This document shows, piece after piece, positions 20,943-43,835 of a stretch of 49,709 bases of DNA. A program made the position numbers and the translations under genes. Below the pieces are notes generated by a model. It was not told where the DNA came from and did not search any database. It saw nothing but the letters and a program-made list of their open reading frames with translations. Each line of letters begins with the position of its first letter. Within the stretch, counting starts at the first letter, position 1. Origin of the DNA: Clostridiaceae bacterium (GTDB lineage: Bacteria; Bacillota; Clostridia; Lachnospirales; Lachnospiraceae); assembly GCA_021200535.1 (NCBI GenBank), contig JAJQGL010000006.1, forward strand, positions 1-49,709, given 5' to 3'.

Positions 20943-21044
20943 CTAATCCTCATTTCTGCGCACACTCTTTGTACAAGCGAATGATATTCGCTTTAACGAG
21001 GTTTGTGTCAAGTGCGCGCAGACACAAATCCCGCGTGTGATCAT
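20943..21044 (-). promoter_or_regulatory. Structured leader of leuB, with possible leader ORF
   Basis: The untranslated region holds three dyads: TTTGTGTC with GACACAAA (8 bp), AAGCGAAT-gat-ATTCGCTT (8 bp), and a longer-range pairing of TCTGCGCGCAC with GTGTGCGCAGA (11 bp, one G-U) that ends right before AATGAGG, the ribosome-binding site. The last overlaps the first dyad, so they are mutually exclusive. A 33-codon ATG frame runs from 21044 to a stop 1 base before the leuB ATG. A second, overlapping frame is richer in Leu, Ile and Val and ends in GCG CAG AAA TGA. Neither has a clear Shine-Dalgarno sequence. Confidence 0.5.
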
Positions 21045-21086
21045 TTATCTGTCACACTGTCTTTCTTTCTAAAAGCACTATTTTAT

Positions 21087-21115
21087 AGTGTATACAGAAA
21101 TTCAATTTGTGTCAA
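21087..21115 (-). promoter_or_regulatory. Sigma-70-type promoter for leuB-ilvD-ilvB
   Basis: On the minus strand, consensus TTGACA (21110-21115), a 17-bp spacer and TACACT (21087-21092). Transcription would start near 21080, leaving a leader of about 140 nt. Confidence 0.65.
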
Positions 21116-21165
21116 GTCACTTGCCTGCGAGTATACAATCTCCCATTTTTTTACGAAATTTTATT

Positions 21166-21247
21166 GCAGGCGCAGCCCCTGACGCAGACTGCATTATTGT
21201 TTCCCTGCAGCCGCAGTCCCTGCCGCAGGCTGCACTATTGTTTCCCT
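21166..21247 (-). repeat. Two tandem 41-bp repeats across the 3' end of dut
   Basis: 21166-21206 and 21207-21247 match at 36 of 41 positions. The gene-proximal copy contains the last few dut codons and the TAG stop, so the gene end appears duplicated: the second copy carries a TAA in the same place. On the minus strand each copy can form a hairpin between TGCAG and CTGCA arms, the first with a 7-bp TGCAGCC/GGCTGCA stem. They may act as tandem 3'-end structures. Confidence 0.75.
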
Positions 21248-21669
21248 GTAGTCCCAAATCCGCCTCTGTCTTCCCCTTCCAAATGACGCACTTCTTCAAA
21301 TTGGATCACCGGCTGGTTCCGCATAATCCGAAACTGGCAGATTCTGTCGTTGACATGGATCACGGTATCACGCATCGCAATCACCGGCATGCGCCACATA
21401 TCATTATCCCCGCAGTAAGAGCCGTCCACCACTCCAACTGAATTCGGCTGGATTATTCCAAAGTTTTTATAGGTGCTGCTGCGCGGTGCAATATGTGCTT
21501 CATAACCTTCCGGAAGCTGCATGGCAACCCCAAGCGGAATCAGACAAAACTCTCCTTTCTTTAAAGCTACTTCCTCCGAAGCCCGCAGGTCAATCCAGTC
21601 TGATTTGCCATCAATATAAGTCAGTTTGTCAATTTCATCCGTAAAATACTTTATTTTGATCTGTTCCAT
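21235..21669 (-). CDS. dut: dUTP diphosphatase (trimeric dUTPase)
   Basis: 144 residues, typical of the trimeric family. Conserved motifs are [25 protein letters not shown], the RICQFRI segment and the C-terminal GGFGTTG loop that closes over the active site. It hydrolyses dUTP to dUMP, keeping uracil out of DNA. The start at 21669 has GGGGAG 5 nt upstream; the frame extends further but the extension is not conserved-looking. The gene has its own promoter candidate and ends inside a tandem repeat. Confidence 0.93.
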
Positions 21670-22006
21670 TTGTCTCCCCTTTTTTACAGGCCGGCAAAAA
21701 CAATGTACCGGTCTTGCCAGCCTTTGTGTATTTCTGGTACAGCGTTTCCTCCGCATCTGTTTTCTGTACTAACTTTTTGTGCCAAAAGCAGTATAACATA
21801 ACTGAAAACAGGATGGCAAATGCCGCAATCTGTTTTCCTGACTGGAAAGTCCTGTCACTGGATGCACACTTTTCCTTCTGCTGCATAAAATGAAAAGAAG
21901 GCTTCTATAATGAGAGGACTGGTACAGCATTTCCGAAGCGCCTGTACAAACTTGCACAAGGGGTTTCGATATGAGGTAGTAAATCATTTCTCAGGAAAGG
22001 AATACT
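21670..22006. other. Intergenic region between divergent dut and sleC
   Basis: 337 bp. It holds the dut promoter candidate on the minus strand and, just before 22007, AGGAAAGG as the sleC ribosome-binding site. A sporulation-type promoter for sleC is expected here, but I cannot place one with confidence. Short minus-strand frames across it look like chance. Confidence 0.5.
21790..21819 (-). promoter_or_regulatory. Promoter candidate for dut
   Basis: On the minus strand, TTGCCA (21814-21819), an 18-bp spacer ending in TGT, and TATACT (21790-21795). Both hexamers match 5 of 6 consensus bases and an extended -10 TG is present. Confidence 0.5.
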
Positions 22007-23272
22007 ATGCCAAGCTTAAAAGCAATGCAGGATCTGCCTGACACCGGATATTTTCAGGCAAACATTACATCACAGATTGACTCCTACCCAATCCGTGACG
22101 CACGGATACAAATTACGGATAGCAGCAATCCGGAAAAAATCATTGCCGACCTTGCCACAGACAGCAACGGCCAGACCGAGATTGTCCCGCTTCCGGCACC
22201 GCCGCTGGAATACAGCATGCAGCCGGAAGCAAATCAGCCCTATTCGGAATACAATATCCATATTCAGGCTGCCGGTTTTGAATCTCAGGACATCAACGGG
22301 GCTGAGATTCTGTCTGGAGAAACCGCACTTCAAAATACATCCCTGCTCCCTCTGGAGGACACAGGCGACAGCGGCACAACAGAGCTTTTTGTCATACCGC
22401 CCCACACTTTATACGCCCAGTATCCGCCTAAAATACCAGAAGAAGAAATCAAAGACACCACGCAGACCGGCGAAATTGTCTTAAGCCGTGTTGTAATCCC
22501 GGAATATGTTGTGGTGCATGACGGGCCGCCATCTGATAATTCAGCACAAAATTACTATGTCAAATACAAAGATTATATCAAAAACGTAGCCTCCAGCGAA
22601 ATTTATGCCACATGGCCGGAAGCTACAATCTTTGCCAATATACTGGCAATCCAGTCCTTTACCCTGAACCGCGTCTACACCGAATGGTACCGGAATAAAG
22701 GAAAAGATTTTACCATTACCAACTCGACTGCGTATGACCAGAAATGGATAGCCGGAAGAAATGTCTATGACAGCATCTCGGAGGCTGTCGATACCATTTT
22801 CTCAAATTATCTGTCAAGGCCGAATGTCCTGCAGCCAATTTTCACGCAATACTGCGACGGCCAGCGTGTCTCCTGCCCGAACTGGCTGCGGCAATGGGAA
22901 TCCAAAACATTAGGGGATCAGGGATATTCCGCTATCGAAATCATTCGCTATTTCTACGGAGATACCATGTTTATCAACACAGCACAGGAGATTTCCGGCG
23001 TGCCTGCCTCCTGGCCCGGAAGCGACCTCACGATTGGAAGCACCGGAAGTAAAGTGCAGCAGATGCAGGAGCAGCTAAATGTGATTTCCAATGCCTATCC
23101 GCTCATCCCCAAAATCAGCGCTGACGGTGTATATGGCAGCCAGACGGCGGAGGCAGTAAAAGTTTTCCAGAAGGTTTTTAATCTTCCTCAGACCGGTGTC
23201 GTTGACTTTACGACATGGTATAAAATCAGTGAAATCTATGTCGGCGTCAGCCGGATTGCTGAGCTGGCATAG
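22007..23272 (+). CDS. sleC: SleC-like spore cortex-lytic enzyme with peptidoglycan-binding domain
   Basis: 421 residues. Residues about 13-100 look like a carboxypeptidase-regulatory-type beta domain (prodomain region). The middle, from VVIPEYVVVHDGPPSD, contains IKNVASSEIYATWP and FTLNRVYTEWYRNKG, the SleC/SpoIID-like lytic domain. The last 75 residues are a PG_binding_1 domain (STGSKVQQMQEQL, ISADGVYGSQTAEAVKVFQ). In clostridia SleC is made as a zymogen, activated by Csp proteases, and degrades cortex peptidoglycan during germination. No csp gene or Ser-protease is nearby. No classic signal peptide is seen, as expected for a spore protein. AGGAAAGG precedes the ATG. Confidence is high for the family and lower for the exact role. 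Confidence 0.8.
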   Translation: MPSLKAMQDLPDTGYFQANITSQIDSYPIRDARIQITDSSNPEKIIADLATDSNGQTEIVPLPAPPLEYSMQPEANQPYSEYNIHIQAAGFESQDINGAEILSGETALQNTSLLPLEDTGDSGTTELFVIPPHTLYAQYPPKIPEEEIKDTTQTGEIVLSRVVIPEYVVVHDGPPSDNSAQNYYVKYKDYIKNVASSEIYATWPEATIFANILAIQSFTLNRVYTEWYRNKGKDFTITNSTAYDQKWIAGRNVYDSISEAVDTIFSNYLSRPNVLQPIFTQYCDGQRVSCPNWLRQWESKTLGDQGYSAIEIIRYFYGDTMFINTAQEISGVPASWPGSDLTIGSTGSKVQQMQEQLNVISNAYPLIPKISADGVYGSQTAEAVKVFQKVFNLPQTGVVDFTTWYKISEIYVGVSRIAELA

Positions 23273-23299
23273 ATACGTATTCTGTGAACAATGTTTTCC

Positions 23300-23341
23300 A
23301 AAAAGGGAATGCAGCTCCATCTTCTACTGCATTCCCTTTTT
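23300..23341. terminator. Bidirectional terminator between sleC and the esterase gene
   Basis: AAAAAGGGAATGCAG (23300-23314) pairs perfectly with CTGCATTCCCTTTTT (23327-23341) around a 12-nt loop, with T-runs in both directions. The stop codon of the minus-strand esterase lies in the loop, so its last codons are part of the terminator stem. Confidence 0.75.
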
Positions 23342-24277
23342 TTCCGGTATTTCCTGTTCACAAGAGGAAGAAAAAATTTCTTCCGTAAATTCCAGTGCCT
23401 CTTCCCATGCTTTTTCCGACTCCGGAAGCCGTTCCAGCGCCGTTTGAAACACATGAAACATGCCTTCATAAACAGACAGCCTGACTTGACAGCCTGACTC
23501 CCTTGCTTTCTTTGCCGCATCGACAGAATCACTCAGAAGCATTTCTTCACTCCCCACCTGAAAAAGCATGGGCGGCAGTCCTTCAAAGCTGCCAAAAAGC
23601 GGCGAAATATAAGGTTCCGACGGATCATGCCCCTGATAATATTGTCCGCTGTAAATCATGCTTTCCTTCGTTCCCCCAAACAGCGGATCCGTATAAAAAT
23701 TTTTCTCATAGGATTCACCGGAAGCAGTCAGGTCAGTCCACGGAGACATCAAAACCATTGCTGCCGGGAGTTCCTTCCCCTGATCTCTCAGGTAAGCGGC
23801 TAATGCAAGGCAAAGTCCCCCTCCTGCCGAATCCCCGGCAAGAACAAGCTCTTTTCCCCTGTAGCCCAGATTTAACAGCATACAATACGCAGAATATGCA
23901 TCCTGCAGCGCCGCAGGATATGGATGCTTCGGTGCAACCCGGTAATCTGCAGAAAACACCTTGATGCCTCCCATCGCATCACTATAGCGCTTTGCAAAAT
24001 TGCGGTGCCTGTTTTTCATTCTGCCGATATAGCCGCCTCCATGCAGCTGCAACACGGCCTTCTCTCCGGCAACCTGAGGCGGTGTAAGTATCTCCACATC
24101 ACATCCCCCGGCTTTTACCCGCAAAAGGGAATACCCATCAGGCGGATGCCACGGCGCTTCATGCACCTTTTTGGAAAGCATTCCATTTTTTATCTGAGGA
24201 CCTAAAAGCCGCTCTGATGTTGCAAGCCGGAGCAACTCACGCACAACCTTTGCCCTGACGCTGATTTCCTTTTTCAA
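23324..24277 (-). CDS. Alpha/beta hydrolase, hormone-sensitive-lipase-type esterase
   Basis: 317 residues, normal for the HSL family. The oxyanion motif HGGG is at 79-82, the nucleophile is S150 in GDSAGGG, and the acid/histidine are probably in the SDSVDAA and GMFHVF regions near the C-terminus. No signal peptide is seen, so it is likely cytoplasmic. It would hydrolyse an acyl ester; the substrate is unknown. The start is a TTG at 24277 with GAGG 8 nt upstream; the first in-frame ATG is 33 codons later. It is the third gene of a same-strand trio with the DUF6320 and acyltransferase genes (35 bp after DUF6320), which suggests it acts on their product. Confidence 0.82.
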   Translation of the reverse strand: MKKEISVRAKVVRELLRLATSERLLGPQIKNGMLSKKVHEAPWHPPDGYSLLRVKAGGCDVEILTPPQVAGEKAVLQLHGGGYIGRMKNRHRNFAKRYSDAMGGIKVFSADYRVAPKHPYPAALQDAYSAYCMLLNLGYRGKELVLAGDSAGGGLCLALAAYLRDQGKELPAAMVLMSPWTDLTASGESYEKNFYTDPLFGGTKESMIYSGQYYQGHDPSEPYISPLFGSFEGLPPMLFQVGSEEMLLSDSVDAAKKARESGCQVRLSVYEGMFHVFQTALERLPESEKAWEEALEFTEEIFSSSCEQEIPEKKGMQ

Positions 24278-24312
24278 AACCAGTACCTCATCTTTCTTTT
24301 ATTATGATTCAT

Positions 24313-24978
24313 TTAGATATAAAATCGCTTTTTTAACTCATTTTTTGCCGTCCTGTTCCCTATACAGAAACAAAGAGAAAATAAAATTGCAGACACTAAA
24401 AAAGCAGTCCATGGAAGCGCCGGCTTTGCCGTCACACCAAACAAAAATAACGCAAGCAGTATAGCGCTGACCAGCAAAACAAACAGCTGTACCAAAAGGT
24501 AGCTCTGCCAGTCCCGCCGGTTAAAAAGCATGCACACGGCAAGCACAGCATCCAGAAAAAGCACCGCACATGGCATCGCATATACCACGGACCAGCCGGA
24601 TGAACCGGTAACACGGTCTAACAGCAGCAAAAAAAACATCCCTGCCAGTGTCTGCCAGTACATTTTCCGAATATGGCTGTTACGCCGGTTAAAAGAATAA
24701 TATATTGTAAAAATGGCATACAAAAAACATACCCCCGTGATCAGAGACCAGGAAAAACGGTCATCCGAATAGTAATCAGCAACAAGAAATATCATCTCCA
24801 AAACAACAAGAACAAAGACAAAGAGCTTAAGCAGGAGCCGAAAAATCTTTGTCTGGCTCCGCACATCCGGATAAGTATCCGTCTGCCCGTCCCCATCTGT
24901 TGTAAGAATAGTCTCACACAAGGGACACACGGCAGTGTCATCCACAATCTCGACACCGCATCGTTTGCATTGATTCAC
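24313..24978 (-). CDS. DUF6320 membrane protein with N-terminal zinc ribbon
   Basis: 221 residues. The first 21 carry two CxxC pairs (C4/C7 and C18/C21), a zinc-ribbon pattern. After a polar linker come about six hydrophobic segments, between residues 45 and 210, so it is an integral membrane protein. I recognise it as the DUF6320 type, for which I know no experimental function. The start is taken as the GTG at 24978, with GGGGG 8 nt upstream; a GTG three codons earlier overlaps that site. It sits between the condensation-fold acyltransferase (48 bp) and the esterase (35 bp). Confidence 0.72.
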   Translation of the reverse strand: MNQCKRCGVEIVDDTAVCPLCETILTTDGDGQTDTYPDVRSQTKIFRLLLKLFVFVLVVLEMIFLVADYYSDDRFSWSLITGVCFLYAIFTIYYSFNRRNSHIRKMYWQTLAGMFFLLLLDRVTGSSGWSVVYAMPCAVLFLDAVLAVCMLFNRRDWQSYLLVQLFVLLVSAILLALFLFGVTAKPALPWTAFLVSAILFSLCFCIGNRTAKNELKKRFYI

Positions 24979-25026
24979 AAAACACACCCCCTCTTCTTTT
25001 TCCGGCGCTGCAAAGCAAGTACAGCA

Positions 25027-26325
25027 TCAGTATGTCACTCCGTTACTCTCAACAATTACCCGGATACCCTGTTCAGACAAGGTCTTAAAAAAACGCCTTT
25101 GGATGGAAACATCTGTAAATACAGATGTAATTGTAAAGCTCAGCAAGTCATTGTAGGAACAGATTGCTCCTTTTATGTTCTGCCCGACCGACCGTGAAAT
25201 CATCACACTAAAATTCCGGATAAACGGGCGGTATTTTTCACCGACCTGAATCTTGCCAATATTGGTCACTGTTGTTGTATTAGCCTTCGCCGACGAACGG
25301 TAAACCATCCGCATCGCAACCAGCTTGACAAAAATCGGAACAGAACGTAAAAAAATGTTTTTCTGATTGGCAACATTATAGGAAAACAGCTCCTCCAGAT
25401 GCTCTTTATTGATCTGCCCGCGAAGGCTTTGCTTTACAAGATCTACCACATCCTGCAGCGGCATATCCTCTCTCTCCGGCAAAAAGACAGCGCTGACCAT
25501 CACAAAGAAATTTCTTGTTGTCAAAGAGTCAAAAAACGGCCTTAAATCAACTGGTATGCACGCAGCCAGCGGTTTATCAGACGGCTGGCCATGCAGATAT
25601 TCTTTGTATATGCTATACAAAAAAACAGCAGTCAGATACTCATTGATACTTGCCTCTGCTTTTCGGCAAACCTCTTTTAGCTCTGTCAGAGGCATGTAAC
25701 CGTGGAAAACGCTAATCTCCCCGCCGCCAAATTTCTCTCCCTTTACCTCCACTGCGCGCTTTGTCTGATACCCTTTTTTATGGCTTTTTTTGTAGTGCTT
25801 CAGATAGCTGTCCTCTGTGTTAAGAGACGTCTCATCAGAAAAACCGGTCTGATCTGCCCCGGAAAGGCTTTCCTGCGTCAGACGCAGATACTGGTATGTG
25901 ATTTCCTTTAAAAAATTTACGCTTCCCATCCCATCAGCCAGCACATGAAAAACCTCCAGATTAATTCTTTTTTTGTAATACGTAACGCGGAACAGATAAT
26001 TATTATTGGCATAAGGTTCTATATACGAGCAGGGATAATTTGCCTCCTCCAGCACATTTGGGGCGGGCTTGTCATTTGTCTCAAAATAATGCCAGAAAAT
26101 CCCTCTGCGCATGCGCACGCGGAACGTATCATACCGCGGCAATACCATGTCAAGCGCCTGCTGCAGCCGCATTGCATCCACATTTTCCCGCAGGACAACA
26201 CTGATACGATAGACATTTGTCCTGTTGTGGCCTGCAATCGCCGGGAACAGGTTTGCCGTATTGTCAAGCTTTTCCCAGTGTATTCTCTGCCTCCTGTTTT
26301 TCTTTCCTTTACCCTGATTGTTCAA
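25027..26325 (-). CDS. Condensation-domain-like acyltransferase (alcohol acetyltransferase/PapA type)
   Basis: 432 residues resembling the chloramphenicol-acetyltransferase/condensation fold. The N-terminal part (IHWEKLDNTANLFPAIA, then LQQALDMVLPRYDTFRVRM) is typical of these enzymes. The active-site motif appears as HVLADG at 127-132; the first histidine of the usual HHxxxDG is Phe here, while the catalytic second one is kept. A DFGWG-like motif is not evident. Such enzymes transfer an acyl group to an alcohol or amine. The start is a TTG at 26325 with AGAGG 7 nt upstream and no ATG near; the fold needs this N-terminus. It heads the trio with DUF6320 and the esterase. Product unknown. Confidence 0.72.
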   Translation of the reverse strand: MNNQGKGKKNRRQRIHWEKLDNTANLFPAIAGHNRTNVYRISVVLRENVDAMRLQQALDMVLPRYDTFRVRMRRGIFWHYFETNDKPAPNVLEEANYPCSYIEPYANNNYLFRVTYYKKRINLEVFHVLADGMGSVNFLKEITYQYLRLTQESLSGADQTGFSDETSLNTEDSYLKHYKKSHKKGYQTKRAVEVKGEKFGGGEISVFHGYMPLTELKEVCRKAEASINEYLTAVFLYSIYKEYLHGQPSDKPLAACIPVDLRPFFDSLTTRNFFVMVSAVFLPEREDMPLQDVVDLVKQSLRGQINKEHLEELFSYNVANQKNIFLRSVPIFVKLVAMRMVYRSSAKANTTTVTNIGKIQVGEKYRPFIRNFSVMISRSVGQNIKGAICSYNDLLSFTITSVFTDVSIQRRFFKTLSEQGIRVIVESNGVTY

Positions 26326-26424
26326 TCGTTTCCTCTCTCCTTTGCCCGGTGATCCAAAACAGAATGGGGTTTGCCCCTATGCGTTTTTTATTTGCCCGCC
26401 ATGCTGTCGGCAAAAAAAGCAGCT

Positions 26425-28899
26425 CTACTCTCCCACCGCCAGAGTATATGTTTCATTCTTTTCTGTCTCAAAAGATAAAATGCCATCCTCATAAGAAGTT
26501 TCCACCTCATTGCCGGAAGAATCCGTAACCCTGCACGCATCTATCTGTATTTTACATTCCTTCGCTGCCGTTGATAATACCGAAAGCTCTGTCAGCGTTT
26601 TATTGCTCCATTTTGCCTGCAGCTCAAATCCGTTTCTCGCACACAGTCCGTCAAATTCTCCATCCTTCCAGGCATCCGGCAGTGCCGGCAATACCTGAAT
26701 ATATCCCATGTGGCTCTGCAGCAGCATCTCTGAGATTCCTGCCGTGCCGCCAAAGTTTCCGTCAATCTGGAACGGAGGGTGCGTATCCCACAAATTTTCA
26801 TAGGTAGAATCCGCCAAAAGACCATGCAGAATCTGGTAGGAGCGGTCACCGTCGCCGGTGCGGGACCAGAGGCAAACCTTCATGGCCCGCGCCCAACCGG
26901 TGGATTCATCTCCCCTGTCATTCAGCGATGCCTTCGCTGCTTCTAACAGATCTGTTGTGTCATAATTGATTTCATTGCCAGGATACAGTCCCAGCAAATG
27001 AGAAGTGTGGCGGTGCGCTTTTTCCACGCTACTGTCATCAAAATCTTCATCATCCTCCTCATACCACTCCTTTAACAGCCCCGTCTCTTCACTAATCTGA
27101 TACGGATCCATTTTGGAAGCCATTTCGCGCGCTGTCTCACGCAGTTCTTCATCCTTGCCTAACAGCTCAGATGCCGTCACAAAGTTTTGCAGCAGATCCT
27201 GAATCAACGATTGCTCGTATGTATTTCCAATCGTGACCGGACCATGCTCTGGCGAATAAGTCGGAGAAGATACATACCTTCCCTGCTCCTCATCATAAAT
27301 CAGAAATTGTGTATAAAACAACGCACTCTCTTTCATAATCGGATAAATCTTTTCTTCCAGATATTGCGTATCTGCAGTAAACTGATAATAATCCCACAGA
27401 TTTTGGTCGAGCCATGCGGTTGCCGCACTAGACCATCCCCATGTATATTCCCAGCCCGGGCAGGTCCATCCGAACGGCGTGCTCTGCGTGTGTGCCACCC
27501 AGCCATTCTCCGGATTTTCCTCATCCGACTCAATTCCATAATAAATTCCTGCCGTCTCACGCCCCGGTTCCCGCAGGCTGTCTACATACTCTACAAAAGG
27601 AATCATGGTTTCTGACAGATTTGCCACGGTCGCCGCCCAATAATTCATCTGAAGATTGACATTGATATGATAATCACTTGCCCAGGTAGGACTGTTGCTG
27701 TTATTCCATACTCCCTGCAGATTGGCCGGAAGGCTTCCCTCTCTGGAAGATGAAATCAGCAGATATCTTCCATACTGGTAATACAGCTCTTCCAGATACA
27801 GATCATCCGTTGTCGGCTCTGAAGAATCATTCTTCTGATACTGTTTTAGCAGGTCGTCCGTGCATGTTTCCGTATATTCACCCCCAAAACTGACAGATGC
27901 CTTTCCAAACAGTGCCTGATAATCCTCCTGATGTTCTTTCAAAAGCGCATCATAGCCTTTGTCTGCTGCCGCCTCGATCGCACTGTCAACCCGGTCCTTC
28001 GGATCCTCTGCGCTTCGGTAGGATGGATACACGTTACTGTAGTCGGTCGCTGCCGTAAACAGGACAATGACTTCTGTCGCATCGCTAATCACAACAGATT
28101 TTTTCCCTGCTTTTGCCGTCCCATCCTTCAATATAAAATGAAAACGGCTCTCATAGCGGAGCTGGTTATCGGTAAGCTCACCGTAATACAAAAGATCCGT
28201 GTCAGACGCCTCAATCTTTGCACCATACTGTGTTGTATTGATATTCATCTTTGCTTTAAAATTTAACTTTTCCTCCCCCTGCGCCGAAAAACGCATGACG
28301 ATTACATTGCTCGGATAATTTGCAAAATATTCTCTTGTATAAGTGGTATTGCCGCAGTCAAAGCTGACACCGGCAACCGACTGGTTCAGATCAAGATACC
28401 GCTGATAATTCTCTGTCTTTTTACTGCTGACCTGGTCAAAGGAAAACAATACGCTCCCAAGTGTCTGATACGCGCCGTATCCTTCCGTATCCCCCACCAG
28501 CTGGCTCATCAGGCTGTCAACCTGATCTGTATCTCCATCGGCAAGCGCCTTTTGCACTTTTTCCAGTGCGCCGGAAGCAGATTCCAGATTTCCGCCATTG
28601 TAGTCAGACCGCTCTTCGGAAGGCCCGCCGGTCCAAAGCGTTTTTTCATTCAGGCAGATCGATTCTTCCTCAATTCCGCCCATGATACTTGCACCCATAT
28701 AGCCATTGCCAATCGGCAGGGAATTGGTTTCCCAAAATTCTGCCGGTTCATCATAGGACAGCTTTAAGGTATCTTTTACTTTATTTTCCCTTACAAGTTC
28801 TTTTTCTTCTTTCTGTTCTGTGTCTCCCCCAAAGCTGCAGGAAGTAACCAGCAAGGATAGCATCACCAGCAGCGACGCAGCAATTCTTCTCTTTTTCAT
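26425..28899 (-). CDS. GH95 family glycoside hydrolase, lipoprotein (alpha-L-fucosidase-like)
   Basis: 824 residues. An N-terminal lipobox (VTSC, Cys21) follows a basic, hydrophobic signal, so it is anchored outside the cell. The rest matches GH95 end to end: N-terminal beta domain with SLPIGNGYMGASIMGG and LNEKTLWTGG, then the (alpha/alpha)6 barrel. Likely catalytic positions are the two Asn in YHINVNLQMNYW, the Glu in TYSPEHGP and the Asp in IDGNFGGTAG. Characterised members are inverting 1,2-alpha-L-fucosidases or alpha-L-galactosidases, acting on host mucin or plant glycans. The start at 28899 has GGAGG upstream. No sugar transporter or fucose genes flank it. The previous gene on the strand is eno, separated by a terminator. 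Confidence 0.92.
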   Translation of the reverse strand: MKKRRIAASLLVMLSLLVTSCSFGGDTEQKEEKELVRENKVKDTLKLSYDEPAEFWETNSLPIGNGYMGASIMGGIEEESICLNEKTLWTGGPSEERSDYNGGNLESASGALEKVQKALADGDTDQVDSLMSQLVGDTEGYGAYQTLGSVLFSFDQVSSKKTENYQRYLDLNQSVAGVSFDCGNTTYTREYFANYPSNVIVMRFSAQGEEKLNFKAKMNINTTQYGAKIEASDTDLLYYGELTDNQLRYESRFHFILKDGTAKAGKKSVVISDATEVIVLFTAATDYSNVYPSYRSAEDPKDRVDSAIEAAADKGYDALLKEHQEDYQALFGKASVSFGGEYTETCTDDLLKQYQKNDSSEPTTDDLYLEELYYQYGRYLLISSSREGSLPANLQGVWNNSNSPTWASDYHINVNLQMNYWAATVANLSETMIPFVEYVDSLREPGRETAGIYYGIESDEENPENGWVAHTQSTPFGWTCPGWEYTWGWSSAATAWLDQNLWDYYQFTADTQYLEEKIYPIMKESALFYTQFLIYDEEQGRYVSSPTYSPEHGPVTIGNTYEQSLIQDLLQNFVTASELLGKDEELRETAREMASKMDPYQISEETGLLKEWYEEDDEDFDDSSVEKAHRHTSHLLGLYPGNEINYDTTDLLEAAKASLNDRGDESTGWARAMKVCLWSRTGDGDRSYQILHGLLADSTYENLWDTHPPFQIDGNFGGTAGISEMLLQSHMGYIQVLPALPDAWKDGEFDGLCARNGFELQAKWSNKTLTELSVLSTAAKECKIQIDACRVTDSSGNEVETSYEDGILSFETEKNETYTLAVGE

Positions 28900-28931
28900 A
28901 AAGCTCCTCCGTTTTTTGTTCTGATTAAAAA

Positions 28932-28998: not shown

Positions 28999-29018
28999 AC
29001 AGTATAGCAGATAACACG

Positions 29019-34553: not shown

Positions 34554-34560
34554 ACGATTG

Positions 34561-34592: not shown

Positions 34593-34597
34593 ATACA

Positions 34598-36886: not shown

Positions 36887-36938
36887 AACTCTATCCTTCC
36901 TTTCCTCAACTGCTCTTCCTGTTGCAGTGCTTTATTTG

Positions 36939-36965
36939 TTAGCACTTTATGTAAACGAGTGCTAA
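36939..36965 (-). promoter_or_regulatory. CIRCE operator (HrcA site) upstream of lon
   Basis: TTAGCACTT, nine bases, then GAGTGCTAA. The consensus is TTAGCACTC-N9-GAGTGCTAA, so only one base differs and the spacing is exact. It lies between the lon promoter and the start codon, where HrcA binding would block transcription. Confidence 0.9.
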
Positions 36966-37027
36966 CAGTTTTTTAAAAAGAAAACGCAAACCATGTAGTC
37001 TGCGCATACCATATTCTCATAAAAAGA

Positions 37028-37056
37028 ATAGTAGCATTATCCTGCTTTCTTGTCAA
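37028..37056 (-). promoter_or_regulatory. Sigma-70-type promoter for lon
   Basis: On the minus strand, consensus TTGACA (37051-37056), a 17-bp spacer and TACTAT (37028-37033). The start would be near 37021, placing CIRCE in the 5' untranslated region. Confidence 0.7.
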
Positions 37057-37141
37057 GCCATTTTCCTGCTTTCTCTTTGCATATTTTCTGCAGCTGCGCC
37101 GTATACTTCACTAAGGAATTTTCCATGGAAAGGATTTTCCC

Positions 37142-38380
37142 ATGAAAACATCAGCTTTCAAAAAGCATTTATACCGCCTGTGTTCATCTATTCTTCTGTT
37201 CTGCCTTCTGCTGTACCCGCCTGGCCAGTCTTGCTCTGTACAGGCTGAAAATGAGGCAGATTCCTCATCAGAGAGCGCCAATGAGGATCTTGACATCACC
37301 GCCAAATCAGCTGTGCTAATCGAAAATAACAGCGGGCGGATTTTGTATCAAAAAAATAAAGACAAGGAGCTGGTTCCTGCCAGCATTACAAAAATCATGA
37401 CACTGCTTCTGATTTTTGATGCAATTAACGCCGGCAAAATCACTTTAGAGGATTCTGTAACCGTCAGTGAATATGCATCTGAAATGGGAGGCTCTCAGGT
37501 TTATCTGGAAGCCGGGGAAACACAGACAGTCAATGACATGATCAAATGCATCAGTATCGCCAGCGCCAATGATGCCGCCGTCGCCATGGCCGAATACATA
37601 GGCGGCTCAGAAACAGCCTTTGTTAAGCTTATGAACGAAAAAGCAGAGGCGCTGGGAATGCAGCATACTCATTTTAAAAACTGCAACGGTCTTGATGATA
37701 CGATCGAAAGCGGACACTACAGCAGCGCCTATGACGTTGCGCTGATGTCCCGTGCGCTGATCACCAATTATCCGCAAATTTCAAATTATTCAACCATCTG
37801 GATGGATGAAATCACACATACAACTAAAAAAGGCGAAACAAAATTCGGTTTAACCAATACCAACAAATTAATTCGCACTTACGAGGGGATTACCGGGCTA
37901 AAAACCGGTTCTACCTCAAAAGCAAAATATTGCCTTTCTGCTACCGCAAAACGAAACGGAATCAGTTTAACTGCTGTTGTGATGGCGGCTCCAGACCCAA
38001 AAATACGTTTTACCCAGGCTGCAAGCCTGCTTGACTATGGGTTTGCCAACTGCACAAGCTATGAAGAAAAGGCTGATGATATCCCACTGACAGACAGGCG
38101 TCTGGCCCACGGCACAAAAGCAACCATTACCCCGCGGGTAGAAACCTCTTTTTCCTATACCCTGACAAACCAGGAAAACGCTGAAATGATAAAACGCAGC
38201 ATCCAATATGACAAAAACCTCACCGCCCCCATCCGGGAGGGTGATACAATCGGATCCGTTGTGTATACGCTGAATGGGGAAGAAATCGGTTCCCTGCCAA
38301 TCCTTGCTGCCGAAACCATAGAGAAAGCAACCTTACTGGACTATTTAAAAAACACATGGGAACGGTTTGTCTTTTCCTAA
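37142..38380 (+). CDS. D-alanyl-D-alanine carboxypeptidase (low-molecular-mass PBP, DacA type)
   Basis: 412 residues. A signal peptide covers the first 35 or so. The serine peptidase S11 domain has all three motifs: SxxK as S81-I-T-K84, SxN as S141-A-N143, and KTG as K254-T-G256. The C-terminal part after about 300 is the beta-rich PBP5-C domain, and the last residues form an amphipathic helix (LLDYLKNTWERFVF) that would tether it to the membrane. It trims the terminal D-alanine of peptidoglycan stem peptides; in spore-formers relatives also act on cortex. AAGGA lies 9 nt before the ATG. A TTGCAT/TATACT pair at 37077-37107 has a rather long 19-bp spacer and is only a weak promoter candidate. 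Confidence 0.92.
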   Translation: MKTSAFKKHLYRLCSSILLFCLLLYPPGQSCSVQAENEADSSSESANEDLDITAKSAVLIENNSGRILYQKNKDKELVPASITKIMTLLLIFDAINAGKITLEDSVTVSEYASEMGGSQVYLEAGETQTVNDMIKCISIASANDAAVAMAEYIGGSETAFVKLMNEKAEALGMQHTHFKNCNGLDDTIESGHYSSAYDVALMSRALITNYPQISNYSTIWMDEITHTTKKGETKFGLTNTNKLIRTYEGITGLKTGSTSKAKYCLSATAKRNGISLTAVVMAAPDPKIRFTQAASLLDYGFANCTSYEEKADDIPLTDRRLAHGTKATITPRVETSFSYTLTNQENAEMIKRSIQYDKNLTAPIREGDTIGSVVYTLNGEEIGSLPILAAETIEKATLLDYLKNTWERFVFS

Positions 38381-38386
38381 CCCAAA

Positions 38387-38415
38387 GACACCGCAGGCAG
38401 TCTGCCTGCGGTGTC
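38387..38415 (+). terminator. Hairpin after the carboxypeptidase gene
   Basis: GACACCGCAGGCA and TGCCTGCGGTGTC form a perfect 13-bp stem with a 3-nt loop, 6 bp past the stop codon. No T-run follows in either direction, so termination may be weak or the hairpin may protect the mRNA end. Confidence 0.45.
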
Positions 38416-38456
38416 CCTGATAAAACCTTTTCGAATGAACCGGACTAAATACTGAT

Positions 38457-39500
38457 TTATTCTTCTTCGTTTTCAAACGTTCCGTAAGTAAAATTATTTT
38501 TTCCGTTGTAGTCAAAGATAAATGAATTGAGCGCCTCCGCATTCGCTGAAGTATCCAGTGTAGAGTTAACGCCATCTGTCATTACCAGGCAGGAGCCTAC
38601 GCTAAATTCATCCTTTCCCCCGCTGCGGTAATATCCACTGATTGGGATCTGCAGCTGGTGTATGGTTGTCGTTCCCATGGAAACCACATCCATAATATAC
38701 GAAATAATTTTATCATTGGATAAATCTGTCGTTACATTTTTCAAAAGCTTATTGGCAATCTGAATCCATTCGGTTTTCGGCAATGCCTTTACTTTGTCAA
38801 ACACCGCATTAATTACTGTCCGCTGACGCCAAGTACGCCCGTAATCGTCACGCAGTCCGTTGACCGTAGTCCCGCTTTTTCGGATACGGCAATATCCGAG
38901 TGCCTGCGCACCATTCAGCGTCTGTTTTCCAACTTTAACATTCCGGTATTTTTTCGGCTTAATATAATTTGTTGTGTTCAGGTATTCTGCTTCTGACTCC
39001 GTCACCTCTACCTCAACGCCTCCAACTGCGTCAACTACATCGACAAATGCATCAAATCCGATCTCCACATAACCGTCCAGCTCAATATTAAAATTTGTGG
39101 CAATCGTCTTGTATAAAAGTTCAATTCCGCCATAGGAATTGGCAGCATTCAGTTTACTGTACCCATAGCCCGGAATCTCTACATATAAATCCCTCATTAA
39201 CGAAGTTGTTTTTAATGTATTATGCTTTAAATCCATTGTCGCTATAATCATTGTGTCAGTCAGACCGGCGGCACTATAATTCGATTCCTCTCGGTAATCA
39301 TTTCCGATAACCAGAATATTTACAATGTCACTGTCCGAATTGACCTTTATGCCGCTTAGATCAACATTTTCCAATACCGTGTCATAGTCGCGGTTTACCT
39401 GATTAAGCGTATCAAAGAAAACAGTCTGTGCCTTTGCCACAAAAAAACCGGCCGTGGCGCTGATCACCAAAAGTAAACTAAATACAATTTTTTTCCACAT
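38457..39500 (-). CDS. LytR-CpsA-Psr (LCP) family protein, copy 1
   Basis: 347 residues. A short cytoplasmic start (MWKK), one transmembrane helix, then an extracellular LCP domain. Conserved features are NILVIGNDYRE, TTSLMRDLYVEIPG with the phosphate-binding Arg, KLNAANSYGG, ALGYCRIRKSG and DDYGRTWRQRTV. LCP enzymes attach teichoic-acid-like or capsular polymers to peptidoglycan; no polymer genes are nearby. The start at 39500 has AAAGGG upstream. The frame is open to 39632, but that part consists of 38-bp repeats whose length is not a multiple of three. It is a paralogue of the next upstream gene and has its own promoter and a long repeat-bearing leader. Confidence 0.9.
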   Translation of the reverse strand: MWKKIVFSLLLVISATAGFFVAKAQTVFFDTLNQVNRDYDTVLENVDLSGIKVNSDSDIVNILVIGNDYREESNYSAAGLTDTMIIATMDLKHNTLKTTSLMRDLYVEIPGYGYSKLNAANSYGGIELLYKTIATNFNIELDGYVEIGFDAFVDVVDAVGGVEVEVTESEAEYLNTTNYIKPKKYRNVKVGKQTLNGAQALGYCRIRKSGTTVNGLRDDYGRTWRQRTVINAVFDKVKALPKTEWIQIANKLLKNVTTDLSNDKIISYIMDVVSMGTTTIHQLQIPISGYYRSGGKDEFSVGSCLVMTDGVNSTLDTSANAEALNSFIFDYNGKNNFTYGTFENEEE

Positions 39501-39545
39501 AGATCGTACCCTTTCTCTCTTATCGTATCCTAAAAGCTTTTTTTC

Positions 39546-39569
39546 ATGCAGCATTCCGAAATGCTGCAT
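39546..39569 (-). promoter_or_regulatory. Perfect hairpin in the leader of LCP copy 1
   Basis: ATGCAGCATT and AATGCTGCAT form a 10-bp stem with a 4-nt loop, 46 nt upstream of the start codon and overlapping the last of the 38-bp repeats. No T-run follows on the transcribed strand, so it is not a terminator for this gene. Confidence 0.55.
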
Positions 39570-39674
39570 ACACACTATGCCGCTGTAAATGCACTGCAAT
39601 GCTGTATACACGTTATGCCGCTGTAAATGCACTGCAATGCTGTATACACGCTATGCCGCTGTAGATGCACTGCA
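39561..39674 (-). repeat. Three tandem 38-bp repeats in the leader of LCP copy 1
   Basis: Units are 39561-39598, 39599-39636 and 39637-39674, each ATGCTG[CT]ATACAC then [AG][CT]TATGCCGCTGTA and [AG]ATGCACTGCA. They differ at only a few positions, with a partial fourth copy after 39674. They lie between the promoter and the start codon, so they would be transcribed. Confidence 0.85.
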
Positions 39675-39735
39675 GCGCTGCATGCTCTCTAAGATGCAGT
39701 ATACAAACAGCAGAGCGCACTTTTACGCCATGCTT

Positions 39736-39764
39736 ATTTTACATGATAAGAAACATTTATGCAA
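39736..39764 (-). promoter_or_regulatory. Promoter candidate for LCP copy 1
   Basis: On the minus strand, TTGCAT (39759-39764), a 17-bp spacer and TAAAAT (39736-39741), just after the stop of LCP copy 2. The leader would be about 230 nt. Confidence 0.5.
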
Positions 39765-39766
39765 TC

Positions 39767-40810
39767 CTATTCCGCAGAAAACTCATCCTGTCCATCATAT
39801 TTTAAAATAAATTTTTTCAAAATACGCGCATTTTCTGAAACATCATACTCACTAGTCGTTCCGTTTGTCGGAACAAGAGAATATTTCGGGTACAGCGAAG
39901 TATATGCTTCGTCTGAATTGCTAAAATAATACCCCTCATACGGAATCTGCAGCTGGTGTACCTGAAGCGTCCCCATGCTGATTACATCTTTCATATAGCT
40001 CATAATCGTATCATTGTCCAAATCTGTGCTGATTGACTTAAATACCTTGTTTGCAATATCAATCCACTCAGAGCTGGACATTCCTTTTACCTTGTCAAAC
40101 AAGGCGCTGAGCACCGTGCGCTGGCGCCATGTACGCCCGTAATCATCTGTCAGCCCATTCACGGTAACCGTACCGCCTTTGCGAATCCGGCAGTACCCCA
40201 ATGCCTGTGCTCCGTTTAGTGTCTGCTTGCCCACCTTAACGGTCCGGTATTTTTTCGGCTTAATGTAATTCGTTGTATTCAGGTAATCTGCTTCCGACTG
40301 GGTCAGCTCCACCTCAACGCCGCCGACCGCATTAATCACTTTTACAAACGCATTAAAATTTACTTTCAGATAACCGTCCAATTTTATATTAAAATTTTGG
40401 GCAATCGTTTTATAAAGGTTTTTCACACCGCCCTCTCCATAGGAAAATGAATGGTTCAACCGGTTTACTTCACCATCTGTCGTCATGTCAACCAGCATGT
40501 CTCTCATCAGGGAAGTCAGCTTTAACGTGTTGTGTTTTTTATCGATTGTGGCAATCATCATAACATCCGGTAATCCGCTCGCCGTATAATTGTCCTCTTT
40601 CCGATAATCATCCCCTACCAGAAGAAGATTGATAATCTCATCATCGGACTCCACATCAATTCCGCTCAAATCGACATCCTTTAATATGGAATCGGTATCC
40701 CTGGTCACCTGATTGAGCGTGTGATTCAACGTGCTCTGCACCTTTGCCATTCCAAAGCCAACGCCTGCACTGAGCAAAATCAACACTCCCAACACAATTT
40801 TCTTCCACAT
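39767..40810 (-). CDS. LytR-CpsA-Psr (LCP) family protein, copy 2
   Basis: 347 residues, exactly the same length as copy 1 and similar throughout. One N-terminal transmembrane helix, then the LCP domain with NLLLVGDDYRK, LTSLMRDMLVDM, RLNHSFSYGEGG, YCRIRKGG and DDYGRTWRQRTVL. The strongest shared block is TNYIKPKKYR followed by VKVGKQTLNGAQALGY. The start at 40810 has GGGAGGGG 8 nt upstream. As for copy 1, the likely role is attaching an envelope polymer to the wall; the two may differ in substrate. The gene order, copy 2 then copy 1, with separate promoters suggests duplication followed by separate regulation. Confidence 0.9.
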   Translation of the reverse strand: MWKKIVLGVLILLSAGVGFGMAKVQSTLNHTLNQVTRDTDSILKDVDLSGIDVESDDEIINLLLVGDDYRKEDNYTASGLPDVMMIATIDKKHNTLKLTSLMRDMLVDMTTDGEVNRLNHSFSYGEGGVKNLYKTIAQNFNIKLDGYLKVNFNAFVKVINAVGGVEVELTQSEADYLNTTNYIKPKKYRTVKVGKQTLNGAQALGYCRIRKGGTVTVNGLTDDYGRTWRQRTVLSALFDKVKGMSSSEWIDIANKVFKSISTDLDNDTIMSYMKDVISMGTLQVHQLQIPYEGYYFSNSDEAYTSLYPKYSLVPTNGTTSEYDVSENARILKKFILKYDGQDEFSAE

Positions 40811-40908
40811 AACACAACCCCTCCCACATATGTATTGCTTCGGCTGCCTGATGGCAAACATACCTCATCAGCCTCCGAAATAACTGTTAATCTGGATATA
40901 CGTTATCC

Positions 40909-40937
40909 ATTGTAGCATGCGGCCTATAAAAAAACAA
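40909..40937 (-). promoter_or_regulatory. Promoter candidate for LCP copy 2
   Basis: On the minus strand, TTGTTT (40932-40937), a 17-bp spacer ending in TGC, and TACAAT (40909-40914): an extended -10 promoter. Confidence 0.45.
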
Positions 40938-41055
40938 GCAAGAGTTTTCCCGCAAAAACAGCGCTGTTGTGGTGCAGCCTGCATGCTTCTTCCTTATCGT
41001 TACTATTCACAGTCCTCCGCCGATATGCGTAAAAGTGACAATCTTCTGCGAACAT

Positions 41056-41084
41056 TTGTATGTATTTACAAAATATGCTATAAT
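41056..41084 (+). promoter_or_regulatory. Extended -10 promoter for the DUF4321 gene
   Basis: TTGTAT (41056-41061), a 17-bp spacer ending in TGC, and a consensus TATAAT (41079-41084), 40 bp upstream of the start codon. Confidence 0.6.
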
Positions 41085-41124
41085 TCGGGGGCAGAATTAA
41101 AAAAATATAACTGGAGGTACCTAT

Positions 41125-41385
41125 ATGGCAAGAGGAGCAGGAAAAAACAACTGGGCATTATTTTTATTATTACTGGCAGGAATTGTACTGGGAAGTTTTA
41201 TTGCACAGGCAGCTTCCGGAATATCCGCGCTTTCATGGCTGAATTACGGAAAAAGCTTTGGGATCACGTCACCCCTGAAGCTGGATCTCGGAATACTGGT
41301 CCTGACATTTGCCCTGTCCATCAAAATTACGATCGGAAGCATTGTCGGTGTGATCATTGGTATCATTATCTATCACTTTATCTGA
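41125..41385 (+). CDS. Small membrane protein, DUF4321
   Basis: 86 residues with two hydrophobic helices (about 10-30 and 57-84) separated by a short polar loop containing YGKSFGITSPLKLDLGILVL. The pattern and length match DUF4321, a widespread clostridial family without assigned function. TGGAGG lies 7 nt before the ATG at 41125. It stands alone with its own extended -10 promoter and a following hairpin, and is divergent from the LCP genes. Confidence 0.8.
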   Translation: MARGAGKNNWALFLLLLAGIVLGSFIAQAASGISALSWLNYGKSFGITSPLKLDLGILVLTFALSIKITIGSIVGVIIGIIIYHFI

Positions 41386-41400
41386 AACGAAAACGCCCAA

Positions 41401-41446
41401 AAAGCCCCCATAGGCCAGATCATTCCATCCGGCTTATGGGGGCTTT
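41401..41446. terminator. Terminator between the DUF4321 and hydratase genes
   Basis: AAAGCCCCCATA (41401-41412) pairs with TATGGGGGCTTT (41435-41446). On the minus strand the stem is followed by a run of five Ts, so it should stop transcription from the hydratase gene best; on the plus strand only three Ts follow. Confidence 0.65.
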
Positions 41447-41472
41447 CCGCAAAATACCTGTCTTAATTTATT

Positions 41473-43761
41473 TTACATCTGTGACTTATAATAATTAATC
41501 AGACATCCCTTAGCAATGATATCTCTTTCATCATCGGTCAGATCGCCGAGACGAAGATCAAATTCTTTCATATCATCCCCGACAACATACGCCTTAATCA
41601 CATCCGTCTTTTCTGTCACTGCTTTCCTGATATCACGGATAAAGATATAGTCTCCATTTTTAAACGGAATCTCATCCGGATAGAGAAATGGAAGCATTCC
41701 CCAGTTGATCAGGTTTGAGCGGTAACGCTTTGTCGCATATTCCTTTGCGATATTTGCCATACCGCCTAAGACCTTCTGACAGGATGCTGCCTGCTCGCGC
41801 GCTGAACCGTCCCCAGGCTTGACCGCATAAATCATGCTGCCAATCTGCGTTTCTTCCGGCTTAACCGTAAATTTCCCGTTGATTTTATCAAATACATCCT
41901 GAATCTCCGGAAGCGCTGCAAAGATATCTTCGCCTGCCACACGCGCTTTTTCCCCTGCCTGCACTGCCTTTGCCTTTCCGACATATTCCGGATCCTTACG
42001 GGACAATGTAAATTCAGCAAGTCCCAGCGGATTAGAACGGAACGAAGAAGTTTCTCCGGAAGGGATCAGTTCATCTGTCGTGGTAACCGGGTCATGGATC
42101 TCAGAAACTACCTTTAAAACCATATTGTCCGTGAGCGCTGTCATTTCCGGCCAGTCTTTAATATTCGGACCAAACTTGATCTGGACAGACGGATCTGCTT
42201 TACCGATGCCATTATAGACACGGTTTTCATAAATTGTGCTGTCAAAGAAATATTTTGGCTTCCTGTAGTCGGCGTCTATGTCCGTAGCAGCTGTCAGATA
42301 GCCCTGGTTTGCCGCTGTTGCCGCAATCGAGCGGGCGTCCATCAGCGCAACAGATGCAATCTGTCCGTTTGTGATCTTAGAGCCTTCCCGATTCGGGAAA
42401 TTACGTGTCGAATGCCGGATAGACAAACCGTTATTCGGAGGCACATCCCCTGCTCCAAAGCAAGGACCGCAGAAAGCAGAACGCACCGTTGCGCCGGTTT
42501 TCATCAGATCAGTAATGGTTCCGTTTTTCACAAGCTCCATAAATACCGGCTGACTGGACGGATAGACACTCAGTGAAAATTCATCTGCTCCAATGTAGCT
42601 GCCCCTGAGAATATCTGCTGCATCACAGATATTTTCAAAACCGCCGCCGGCACATCCGGCAATCACACCCTGCTCCACATAAAGCCTGCCATTCCTTACC
42701 TTATCCTTTAATGTGTATTGGATTTTGCTGTTGTCCAGACTAACCAGCGCTTTCTTTTCCACATCATCTAAAATATCCAGCAGATTCGCATTTAACTCGT
42801 CAATCGTATAGACATTGCTCGGATGGAACGGCATTGCAATCATCGGCTTAATCTCAGACAGATCCACATAAACCATGCCATCATAATACGCAACAGCAGC
42901 CGGCTTTAACTCTTTGTAATCCTCCGGCCGTTTGTGAATCTCATAAAATTCCCTGATCTGATCATCCGTCGTCCAAATAGATGACAGACAGGTTGTCTCT
43001 GTCGTCATGACATCTACACCGATTCGGAAATCTGCTGACAAATTCGCTACACCGTCACCTACAAATTCCATTACTTTATTTTTGACATAGCCATTGCTAA
43101 ATACTGCGCCGATAATCGCCAATGCAATATCCTGCGGACCGACTCCTTTCTGCGGCTTTCCTGTCAGATAAATCGCAACGACACCCGGTTTTGCAATGTC
43201 GTATGTACGGTTCAGAAGCTGCTTTACAAGCTCCGGTCCGCCTTCGCCCATTGCCATTGTCCCCAGCGCCCCATAGCGGGTATGGGAATCGGAACCCAGC
43301 ACCATTTTTCCACCGCCGGCAAGCATTTCCCTTGCAAACTGGTGAATGACTGCCTGATGCGGCGGCACATACATTCCGCCATATTTTTTTGCACAGGATA
43401 AGCCAAACATATGGTCATCCTCATTGATGGTACCGCCTACTGCACAAAGACTGTTATGGCAGTTCGTCAGTACATAGGGAACCGGAAATTTTTCCAATCC
43501 GGAAGCTCTTGCTGTCTGAATGATTCCGACAAACGTAATATCATGTGAGGTCAGCTTATCAAACTTAATCTGGAGATTTTCCATATTGCCTGAAGTATTA
43601 TGAGACTCTAAAATGCCATAAGCCATAGTTCCCTTTGCTGCCTCGTCCTTTGATGGTATACTGCCGCACTTCTGCTGCAAAACAGCCGCGCTGTCTGCAT
43701 TGTCCTCTACAATGTCTTTTCCGTTGACCAGATACACACCGTTGTCATATAACTTAATCAT
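41473..43761 (-). CDS. Aconitase-superfamily hydratase (YbhJ-like)
   Basis: 762 residues. The N-terminal two thirds is the aconitase catalytic region, with [33 protein letters not shown] and the cluster-binding [16 protein letters not shown], followed by [14 protein letters not shown]. The C-terminal swivel part has [13 protein letters not shown] and the closing IFIRDIRKA region. Length and layout resemble E. coli YbhJ more than AcnA, AcnB or LeuCD, and the substrate of that group is not established to my knowledge. The ATG at 43761 has GAGG 6 nt upstream. The leader carries an 18-bp palindrome and an element shared with leuB, hinting at joint control with branched-chain amino acid or 2-oxo-acid metabolism. 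Citrate synthase and isocitrate dehydrogenase are absent here. Confidence 0.82.
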
Positions 43762-43767
43762 ATCTTA

Positions 43768-43835
43768 CCTCATTTCTGCGCTGCCCTTACCTTGTAACCG
43801 GAATCCGCGCCAGACAGCGCACAGACGCAGAGCCC
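43768..43835 (-). promoter_or_regulatory. Leader element of the hydratase gene shared with leuB and ilvB
   Basis: A 5' box at 43817-43835 (GGGCTCTGCGTCTGTGCGC) matches the leuB leader box at 21014-21032 at 15 of 19 positions. The 3' box GCGCAGAAATGAGG (43768-43781) is identical to that of leuB and ilvB. TCTGtgCGCTGTC can pair with GGCAGCGCAGA with a 2-nt bulge, ending just before the ribosome-binding site. A 16-codon ATG frame starting at 43838 lies inside. Confidence 0.55.

Follow-up and report, generated by a model that had tools for sequence, protein, structure and literature searches.

The stretch analyzed here, referred to hereafter as the window, comprises 49,709 nt (positions 1-49,709 of the forward strand) of contig JAJQGL010000006.1, from assembly GCA_021200535.1 of a Clostridiaceae bacterium that GTDB places in the Lachnospiraceae. 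Three of its genes share a leader element that is the subject of this report: leuB (NCBIfam TIGR00169), a hydratase (NCBIfam NF008503, the PRK11413 family) and ilvB, for which we keep the label used in an earlier note on this DNA. That note described the 14-mer GCGCAGAAATGAGG before all three genes. Three exact copies do lie at the positions it gave, all on the minus strand and each 5 or 6 nt ahead of a start codon; within the window alone, three or more matches at up to two mismatches arose in 2 of 100 shuffles. The agreement of ilvB and the hydratase over 17 bases (GCAGCGCAGAAATGAGG) was also confirmed, as was the identity at 15 of 19 positions between the boxes upstream of leuB and the hydratase (21032-21014 and 43835-43817). 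In its full form, read 5' to 3', the leader consists of an A/T-rich hairpin (P0), a hairpin (S1) with a loop strand that serves a second helix (S2), the extended Shine-Dalgarno (SD) block AGAAATGAGG, about 6 nt of spacer and the start codon. The parts of the three leaders are given below, with scores from R1, a covariance model of 75 positions and 10 base pairs.

20942..21057, minus strand: leuB leader, the whole element (P0, S1, S2, loop 3, SD block and spacer); R1 53.8 bits, E 8.1e-14; ATG at 20941-20939
21035..21057, minus strand: leuB P0 hairpin, GTGTGACAGATAAATGATCACAC; equivalent hairpins occur in 45 other leaders (leuB is not among the 45)
21021..21028, minus strand: leuB S1 5' strand, TTTGTGTC, pairing with 21009-21002
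21012..21020, minus strand: leuB S2 5' strand, TGCGCGCAC, in the S1 loop, pairing with 20965-20957, one G.U
21002..21009, minus strand: leuB S1 3' strand, GACACAAA
20957..20965, minus strand: leuB S2 3' strand, GTGTGCGCA
20948..20957, minus strand: leuB extended SD block, AGAAATGAGG, the first A being common to S2
43762..43835, minus strand: hydratase leader, pseudoknot element; R1 67.6 bits, E 6.1e-18; ATG at 43761-43759
43824..43831, minus strand: hydratase S1 5' strand, TCTGCGTC, pairing with 43811-43804
43812..43821, minus strand: hydratase S2 5' strand, TGCGCTGTCT, pairing with 43786-43777, two G.U
43804..43811, minus strand: hydratase S1 3' strand, GGCGCGGA
43777..43786, minus strand: hydratase S2 3' strand, GGGCAGCGCA
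43768..43777, minus strand: hydratase extended SD block, AGAAATGAGG
18029..18060, minus strand: ilvB leader with hairpin P3 (TGCGC at 18060-18056 with GCGCA at 18047-18043), SD block at 18043-18034 and spacer; R1 29.3 bits, E 2e-6; ATG at 18028-18026

S2 is formed by bases of the S1 loop paired with the 6-10 bases directly 5' of AGAAATGAGG, which yields an H-type pseudoknot. The earlier note had proposed that TCTG..GCGC in the 5' box pairs with GCGCAGA in the 3' box; that pairing exists and is the S2 helix, possibly extended by TCT:AGA, but the enclosing hairpin S1 was missed, and because S1 encloses the 5' strand of S2, the leuB and hydratase elements are pseudoknots. The ilvB leader had been described as the 3' half of the element. 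The SD-proximal half is indeed present, but it is not a mere fragment, since it folds into a hairpin of its own (P3, TGCGC-N8-GCGCA) directly 5' of the SD with a folding z of -2.65. No S1 hairpin was seen in this leader.

Copies of the motif are dispersed through the genome and stand at start codons. In the genome from which the window comes (2,894,690 bases in 118 contigs, hereafter the own genome), GCGCAGAAATGAGG is present in 28 exact and 43 one-mismatch copies; the same pattern read backwards gave none. Sixty of the 71 copies (25 of 28 exact and 35 of 43 one-mismatch) lie 3-10 nt before an open reading frame (ORF) of at least 60 codons, so the random placement that would have spoken against the element in the earlier note is not what is found. 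The exact copies lacking such an ORF are L008, L018 and L019 (L numbers denote individual loci and G numbers the genomes in the comparison). The spacer was 6 nt in 43 of the 60 ORF-preceding copies; this own-genome list is unbiased, whereas a motif scan of one genome per species demanded N6 before ATG, which biases its spacing count. R1 behaved similarly, with 18 of 20 matches (E <= 0.001) in 449.7 kb of own DNA standing before ORFs; for stretches taken from G014, G025 and G235, partly chosen around known matches, the figure was 22 of 23.

The exact 14-mer was found in 29 of 61 genomes (the own genome and 60 relatives) and in 5 of 34 genera. The one-genome-per-species scan returned at least 118 stretches and, among the matches listed, these were mostly from Lachnospiraceae or the genera Lachnospira, Acetatifactor and Roseburia, with a few others. 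The earlier note had suggested searching relatives with a covariance model, and R1 matches at E <= 0.01 were obtained in 28 of 28 genus genomes. Because 150 candidates were scored per genome, these counts are lower bounds, ranging from at least 2 to at least 125; the extremes were G025 (at least 125) and G000 (at least 89) against G016 (at least 2) and G009 (at least 3), with at least 89 in the own genome. A search of 246 genomes across the order, run with stricter filters than the genus search, gave matches at E <= 0.001 in 13 genomes, the own included, and in 11 of 117 genera. G014 has no exact 14-mer, yet contains at least 88 R1 matches, and the copies read there use other pairing letters. 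At one locus of G235 (L390, G235:C16:48300-57800) four near-identical elements precede neighbouring genes, at least two starting alike; these elements may have been duplicated together with the genes.

Both helices of the pseudoknot, S1 and S2, covary, and the earlier note's concern that matches would be confined to these loci and show no covariation is answered on both counts. A parser ignorant of the helix letters scored 34 or more in 67 of 178 instances compared to 0.7 in dinucleotide shuffles, and 30 or more in 90 compared to 7. Of 179 instances, 108 have an upstream GCGC, and in 48 of these the three bases adjoining the core are complementary to the loop, where permutation gave 20.5 (maximum 29). 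In 28 mutually distinct copies the S1 score was 15.9 against 10.7-10.8 when permuted (maximum 13.0); each copy offered at most one possible partner, which left no choice to be made in this test. Among 280 instances, 72 have cores other than GCGC, and 23 of these 72 have an exact 6-nt partner (permuted 4.0, maximum 10). The matched core sets include GCGC/GCGC, GCAC/GTGC, GAGC/GCTC and GTAC/GTAC, with TGCACAC/GTGTGCA in most of the G014 copies read. The hbd orthologue in G020 (96% identical over the match, the first 200 amino acids having been searched) has wholly different S1 and S2 letters and an intact pseudoknot.

Column statistics were taken from rows selected by the parser: 57 passed its limits, 53 were left after near-duplicates were removed, 47 entered alignment A1 and 21 of these 47 alignment A2. 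In the columns of A2, 93.2% of cells are paired (86.8 when shuffled, 26-48% in slid controls) and both sides change at 8 of 18 pairs in 26 cells (shuffled 8.9). For S1 in A1, both sides change at 9 of 10 pairs in 50 cells (shuffled 14.2). At two S1 pairs whose letters played no part in selection, G.U was found 33 times and A.C 12 times; over all nine pairs the counts were 66 and 36, with 24 of the A.C at one pair. The cells are not independent, and we take the excess of G.U as a hint of selection on the sense-strand RNA. A structure acting at the DNA level or on the antisense strand was set aside on these same counts, which are a hint only. A promoter reading of TTGACACAAA in own-genome copies was also rejected, as its letters are, by eye, the 3' strand of S1.

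The SD-proximal strand has a second potential partner. TGCGC (or TGCGT/TGTGC) occurs 3-32 nt upstream of that strand in 64 of 179 instances compared to 22.5 in shuffles (maximum 31), and the start of this P3 partner peaks at -14 to -12 (48 of 64). Many copies have P3 in addition to, or in place of, S2, while ilvB has P3 only. Since P3 and S2 use the same SD-proximal strand, they are mutually exclusive partners. With S2 or P3 alike, the helix ends flush against the SD block; in both models it ends at or just before AGAAATGAGG and leaves GAGG free. The nested minimum-energy folds of the leuB and hydratase leaders pair part of AGAAATGAGG; an RNA thermometer or SD-sequestering hairpin, by comparison, would have the SD core paired in its closed state. 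To place the flush helix among ordinary leaders, 389 of 401 predicted genes in 449.7 kb of the own genome (those with at least 110 nt upstream) were scored by SD class. Genes of the AGRAR[TAC]GAGG class reached 14.5 against 10.0 in their own shuffles (n = 18, the three window leaders included), compared to 10.4 against 9.8 for GGAGG genes (n = 135) and 9.7-11.4 against 9.4-9.8 for the remaining three classes; these four other classes exceed their own shuffles by 0.1-1.5.

The 16S tail of G014 is CCTCCTTTCT, read as ...CACCTCCTTTCTAAG. If the mature end lies at CCUCCUUUCU-3', which we assume from Bacillus, 9 of the 10 positions of AGAAATGAGG are complementary to this tail, and the end of the tail coincides with the beginning of the upstream helix. 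The exact tail was not found in 13 genus genomes, probably because the rRNA is absent from these assemblies; in a further search of 15 genomes, G014 alone had it. The T within AAATGAGG was fixed in the main queries, and the choice of that letter was judged from the non-T copies alone; in these the mismatch base is A in 15, C in 4 and G in none. A perfect SD seems to be avoided at this position.

We consider it probable that the element is a dispersed family of structured, cis-acting translation-initiation leaders that carries its own SD, places each gene under translational control and spreads as a unit. The flush helix would set the ease with which the 30S subunit takes the SD, each gene would be controlled at translation by the pseudoknot, the hairpin or the open state, and the family would spread as a unit by landing between an existing SD and the start codon. 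The earlier note had left the choice between a cis-regulatory RNA and a dispersed leader repeat; a covarying structure at start codons, present in many copies at unrelated genes, fits both, and the regulatory effect is one that we infer. The element is far larger in scale than first reported, its pseudoknot, the P3 alternative, the copy number and the differences between sister species all being absent from that note.

Several results weigh against this reading. Nested folding of the hydratase leader was no better than in shuffles (z -0.14); folding of a single strand in this way cannot show a pseudoknot. The S2 rule was passed by only 64 of 179 instances, most one-mismatch and several exact own copies have no strong pseudoknot by the parser, and the column counts of A1 and A2 rest on rows selected for pairing. 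Few genus leaders keep the pseudoknot together with the SD block: 1 of 24 for leuB, 2 of 23 for the hydratase, 1 of 27 for metA and 1 of 10 for phoU, in a comparison where the parser guessed the SD and some leaders scored differently than in the main parser run; by eye, the alcohol dehydrogenase leader keeps both in 1 of 21. That so few orthologues keep the element is odd for an important regulator. Weak parser scores without the SD block were obtained at L237 (32.5) and L278 (28.9). Finally, copies within the own genome have a median identity of 0.58, no higher than between genomes (0.58-0.61).

The differences between sister species bear on how the family might move. The hydratase carriers are the own genome and G010, where S2 is GCAC/GTGC; a third leader, L273, contains AGAAAAGAGG but no pseudoknot. 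For pstB, 2 of 5 leaders (own and G027) carry the SD block. In the orthologous pairs rph (L078/L123), leuD (L150/L154) and gatB (L075/L203), named by eye, the folds upstream of the motif differ; these loci were fetched by the motif, so that the common SD block is there by selection. The variants GCGCAGAATGGAGG, GCGCAGGATGGAGG or GCGCAGATTGGAGG are seen in sister species at alcohol dehydrogenase and leuB (L342, L343, L346, L238, L239).

The main rival is a selfish, non-autonomous mobile element that lands between the SD and the start codon, with a fold kept for mobility, as single-stranded DNA or RNA, and an incidental effect on the host gene; within this explanation the element would survive because it supplies a new SD. 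It would explain why, at the genes tested, one species has a copy that most of its sisters lack, and there are signs of insertion after an existing SD. An SD-like motif lies 2-15 nt 5' of P0 in 29 of 45 leaders, while windows further up gave 5, 1 and 2 of 45. Copies are stacked at L008, L036, L038, L043 and L170, where the element occupies the place in which the start codon of an earlier SD would fall, and L036 is flanked by a perfect 19-nt direct repeat, GCAGGAATGAGGAAAGAGT, the 5' copy of which overlaps, by eye, the stop codon of the upstream ORF. Sequence is shared among copies at unrelated genes: in ten own-genome copies, selected on their S1 5' arm and loop letters, the agreement runs from the 3' arm of P0 to GAGGATT and stops there. 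The own genome holds several subfamilies of the element. In G014, with near-identical copies, identity within the genome is clearly raised (0.82, versus 0.60-0.69 to other genomes), and less so in G001 (0.73) and UBA5912 (0.70).

Other results do not sit well with a purely selfish element. Random landing would not put most copies at start codons, and the excess of G.U over A.C in S1 (33 versus 12) hints at selection on the sense-strand RNA. By eye, no terminal inverted repeats stood out, although no search was aimed at them or at a transposase. Only 1-3 of 33 copies have clear flanking repeats; the group mean was 6.42 against 5.74 when permuted (maximum 6.18), so that as a general rule across copies the sign of target-site duplication is weak. 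We regard the selfish element as unlikely, although it could hold together with the reading of a cis-acting leader. A bolder reading is offered tentatively. Here the pseudoknotted element would be a mobile ribosome-binding site that settles between the SD of a gene and the start codon and provides a new SD beneath a flush, switchable helix. Dozens of unrelated genes in each species would thereby come under one kind of control of translation initiation, with turnover between sister species.

It seems improbable that one ligand or trans-acting factor recognises the copies as a regulon, whether through a riboswitch-like pseudoknot, a protein that binds RNA or a small RNA. The architecture, in which the SD immediately follows an H-type pseudoknot, does resemble that of several translational riboswitches, and the SD block is common to many genes. 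However, in the 47 copies of A1 the invariant columns all lie within S2 or the SD block, and no other unpaired position is invariant. The targets also lack a common pathway. Of the 60 downstream proteins with 60 or more amino acids, 40 were compared with NCBIfam (30 at E <= 1e-8 and 10 at E <= 1e-60). Matches above the cut-offs were lysC, metA, dapA, proA, leuB, pstB, phoU, fabG, pyrF, cysD, ruvA, mutS2, fliG and cbiM; below the cut-off, or on cut proteins, were relatives of hbd, dCMP deaminase, Mrp, prfC, gyrB/parE, clpB and transporters, and for 10 of the 40 no family reached the threshold applied. No pathway was common to these 40 proteins, and with targets spread over unrelated functions a riboswitch or single-pathway regulon was set aside. 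That 25 of the 28 exact copies precede ORFs of 60 codons or more is a further point against a regulon. A small RNA reading GCGC was likewise set aside as unlikely, since the letters of the S2 core differ by species.

Still less probable is a translated leader ORF that starts at GTG or TTG in P0 after the upstream SD, runs through the pseudoknot and stops at the TGA in AAATGAGG, with re-initiation at the main start. An SD and a start codon at P0 are present in 18 of 32 leaders examined, and the ORFs of L168, L184, L192 and L108 end exactly at the TGA of AAATGAGG, 11 nt before the main ATG (e.g. ...YAQKAAQK*). Yet the frames of the 18 are mixed: the stop falls in frame 2 for 10 of them, at varying points, in frame 0 for 3 and in frame 1 for 1, and the remaining 4 continue in frame into the gene. 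That TGA is missing where a copy carries AAAAGAGG or AAACGAGG, and many copies, ilvB included, show no P0. The leader peptide was set aside on the mixed frames. When the spacer is 6 nt, the ATG that AAATGAGG contains shares the frame of the main start. Finally, a chance likeness of strong SDs in a genus with a preferred ribosome-binding site is refuted by the counts, for although the SD block does complement the 16S tail, the backwards control gave none, R1, under the stricter filters, had no match at E <= 0.001 in 233 of the 246 genomes sampled from the order, and S1 and S2 covary.

The window contains a fourth leader, of a second pseudoknot class that has the same architecture and other letters (CTATTTGTGCCGGAGCGTCACAAATTAG ... 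ACGCTCCGGAATGGAG):

44827..44932, minus strand: second-class pseudoknot leader, ahead of an ORF of 306 amino acids (ATG at 44826)
44930-44924 with 44914-44908, minus strand: S1 of this leader
44923-44915 with 44848-44840, minus strand: S2 of this leader, CCGGAGCGT with ACGCTCCGG

Immediately 5' of this leader come an SD-like AAGGAG and a P0-like hairpin. Further own-genome copies of this class are L008, L010, L023, L031, L038, L043, L229, L234 and L235, and one copy was seen in G012 (L270). Upstream of the leuB leader, the region TTGACA ... TTTCTGTATACACTATAAAATAGTG (window 21116-21076) resembles, by eye, a promoter with an operator-like palindrome; it is kept, again by eye, in several genus species though the downstream leader differs.

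No description of the element was found in the literature searched. Passages from the survey papers PMC2864571, PMC8632094, PMC11109978 and PMC8040213, supplementary tables aside, contain no such Lachnospiraceae motif. The candidate structured RNAs in the survey passages likewise come from comparative genomics, and among them the pnuC motif is likewise a pseudoknot at the ribosome-binding site (described in a passage of PMC8632094). Rfam 15 at the gathering score gave no matches in the window and four in 18 loci, all away from the element; at E <= 0.5, a search of 13 loci gave one sub-threshold microRNA match (L371, 134-191), away from the element at 979-1052. No family matches the element, in line with the earlier note, which could name none. 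The four matches off the elements were three copies of TwoAYGGAY and one of Clostridiales-1 (L108 5805-5972 and 6268-6433, L133 5748-5913, L102 1131-1296).

If the proposed reading is true, a group of gut bacteria carries a pseudoknot and the SD belonging to it from one gene to another, and in this way rewires how housekeeping genes are translated. How cis-regulatory RNAs reach unrelated genes would then become testable, as would the effect on initiation of a helix flush against the SD-16S duplex. R1 itself can be used to annotate leaders in poorly studied genomes.

Two kinds of known system are close to the element. H-type pseudoknots act as translational riboswitches in preQ1-I, SAM-II, SAM-V and others. 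As in these, a hairpin loop here pairs downstream, the pseudoknot lies directly at the SD, and S1 and S2 covary. Unlike them, the element has no invariant unpaired pocket in A1 and no pathway, is present in dozens of copies in most genus genomes, and uses pairing letters that differ by species. Dispersed palindromic repeats are also known from bacterial leaders, among them ERIC/IRU, BOX and Correia elements and miniature inverted-repeat transposable elements (MITEs). The many copies at unrelated genes, the hairpins and the differences between related species are shared with these repeats, but the element differs from them in lying within a few bases of the start codon, in bringing the gene's SD, and in a pseudoknot that is kept by compensatory change. 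It is MITE-like in its many similar copies at unrelated sites; identity in the own genome as a whole is not raised, while that in G014 clearly is. The element would work like an H-type pseudoknot at the SD, appears to spread like a dispersed repeat, and shows neither the pocket nor the common pathway of a riboswitch.

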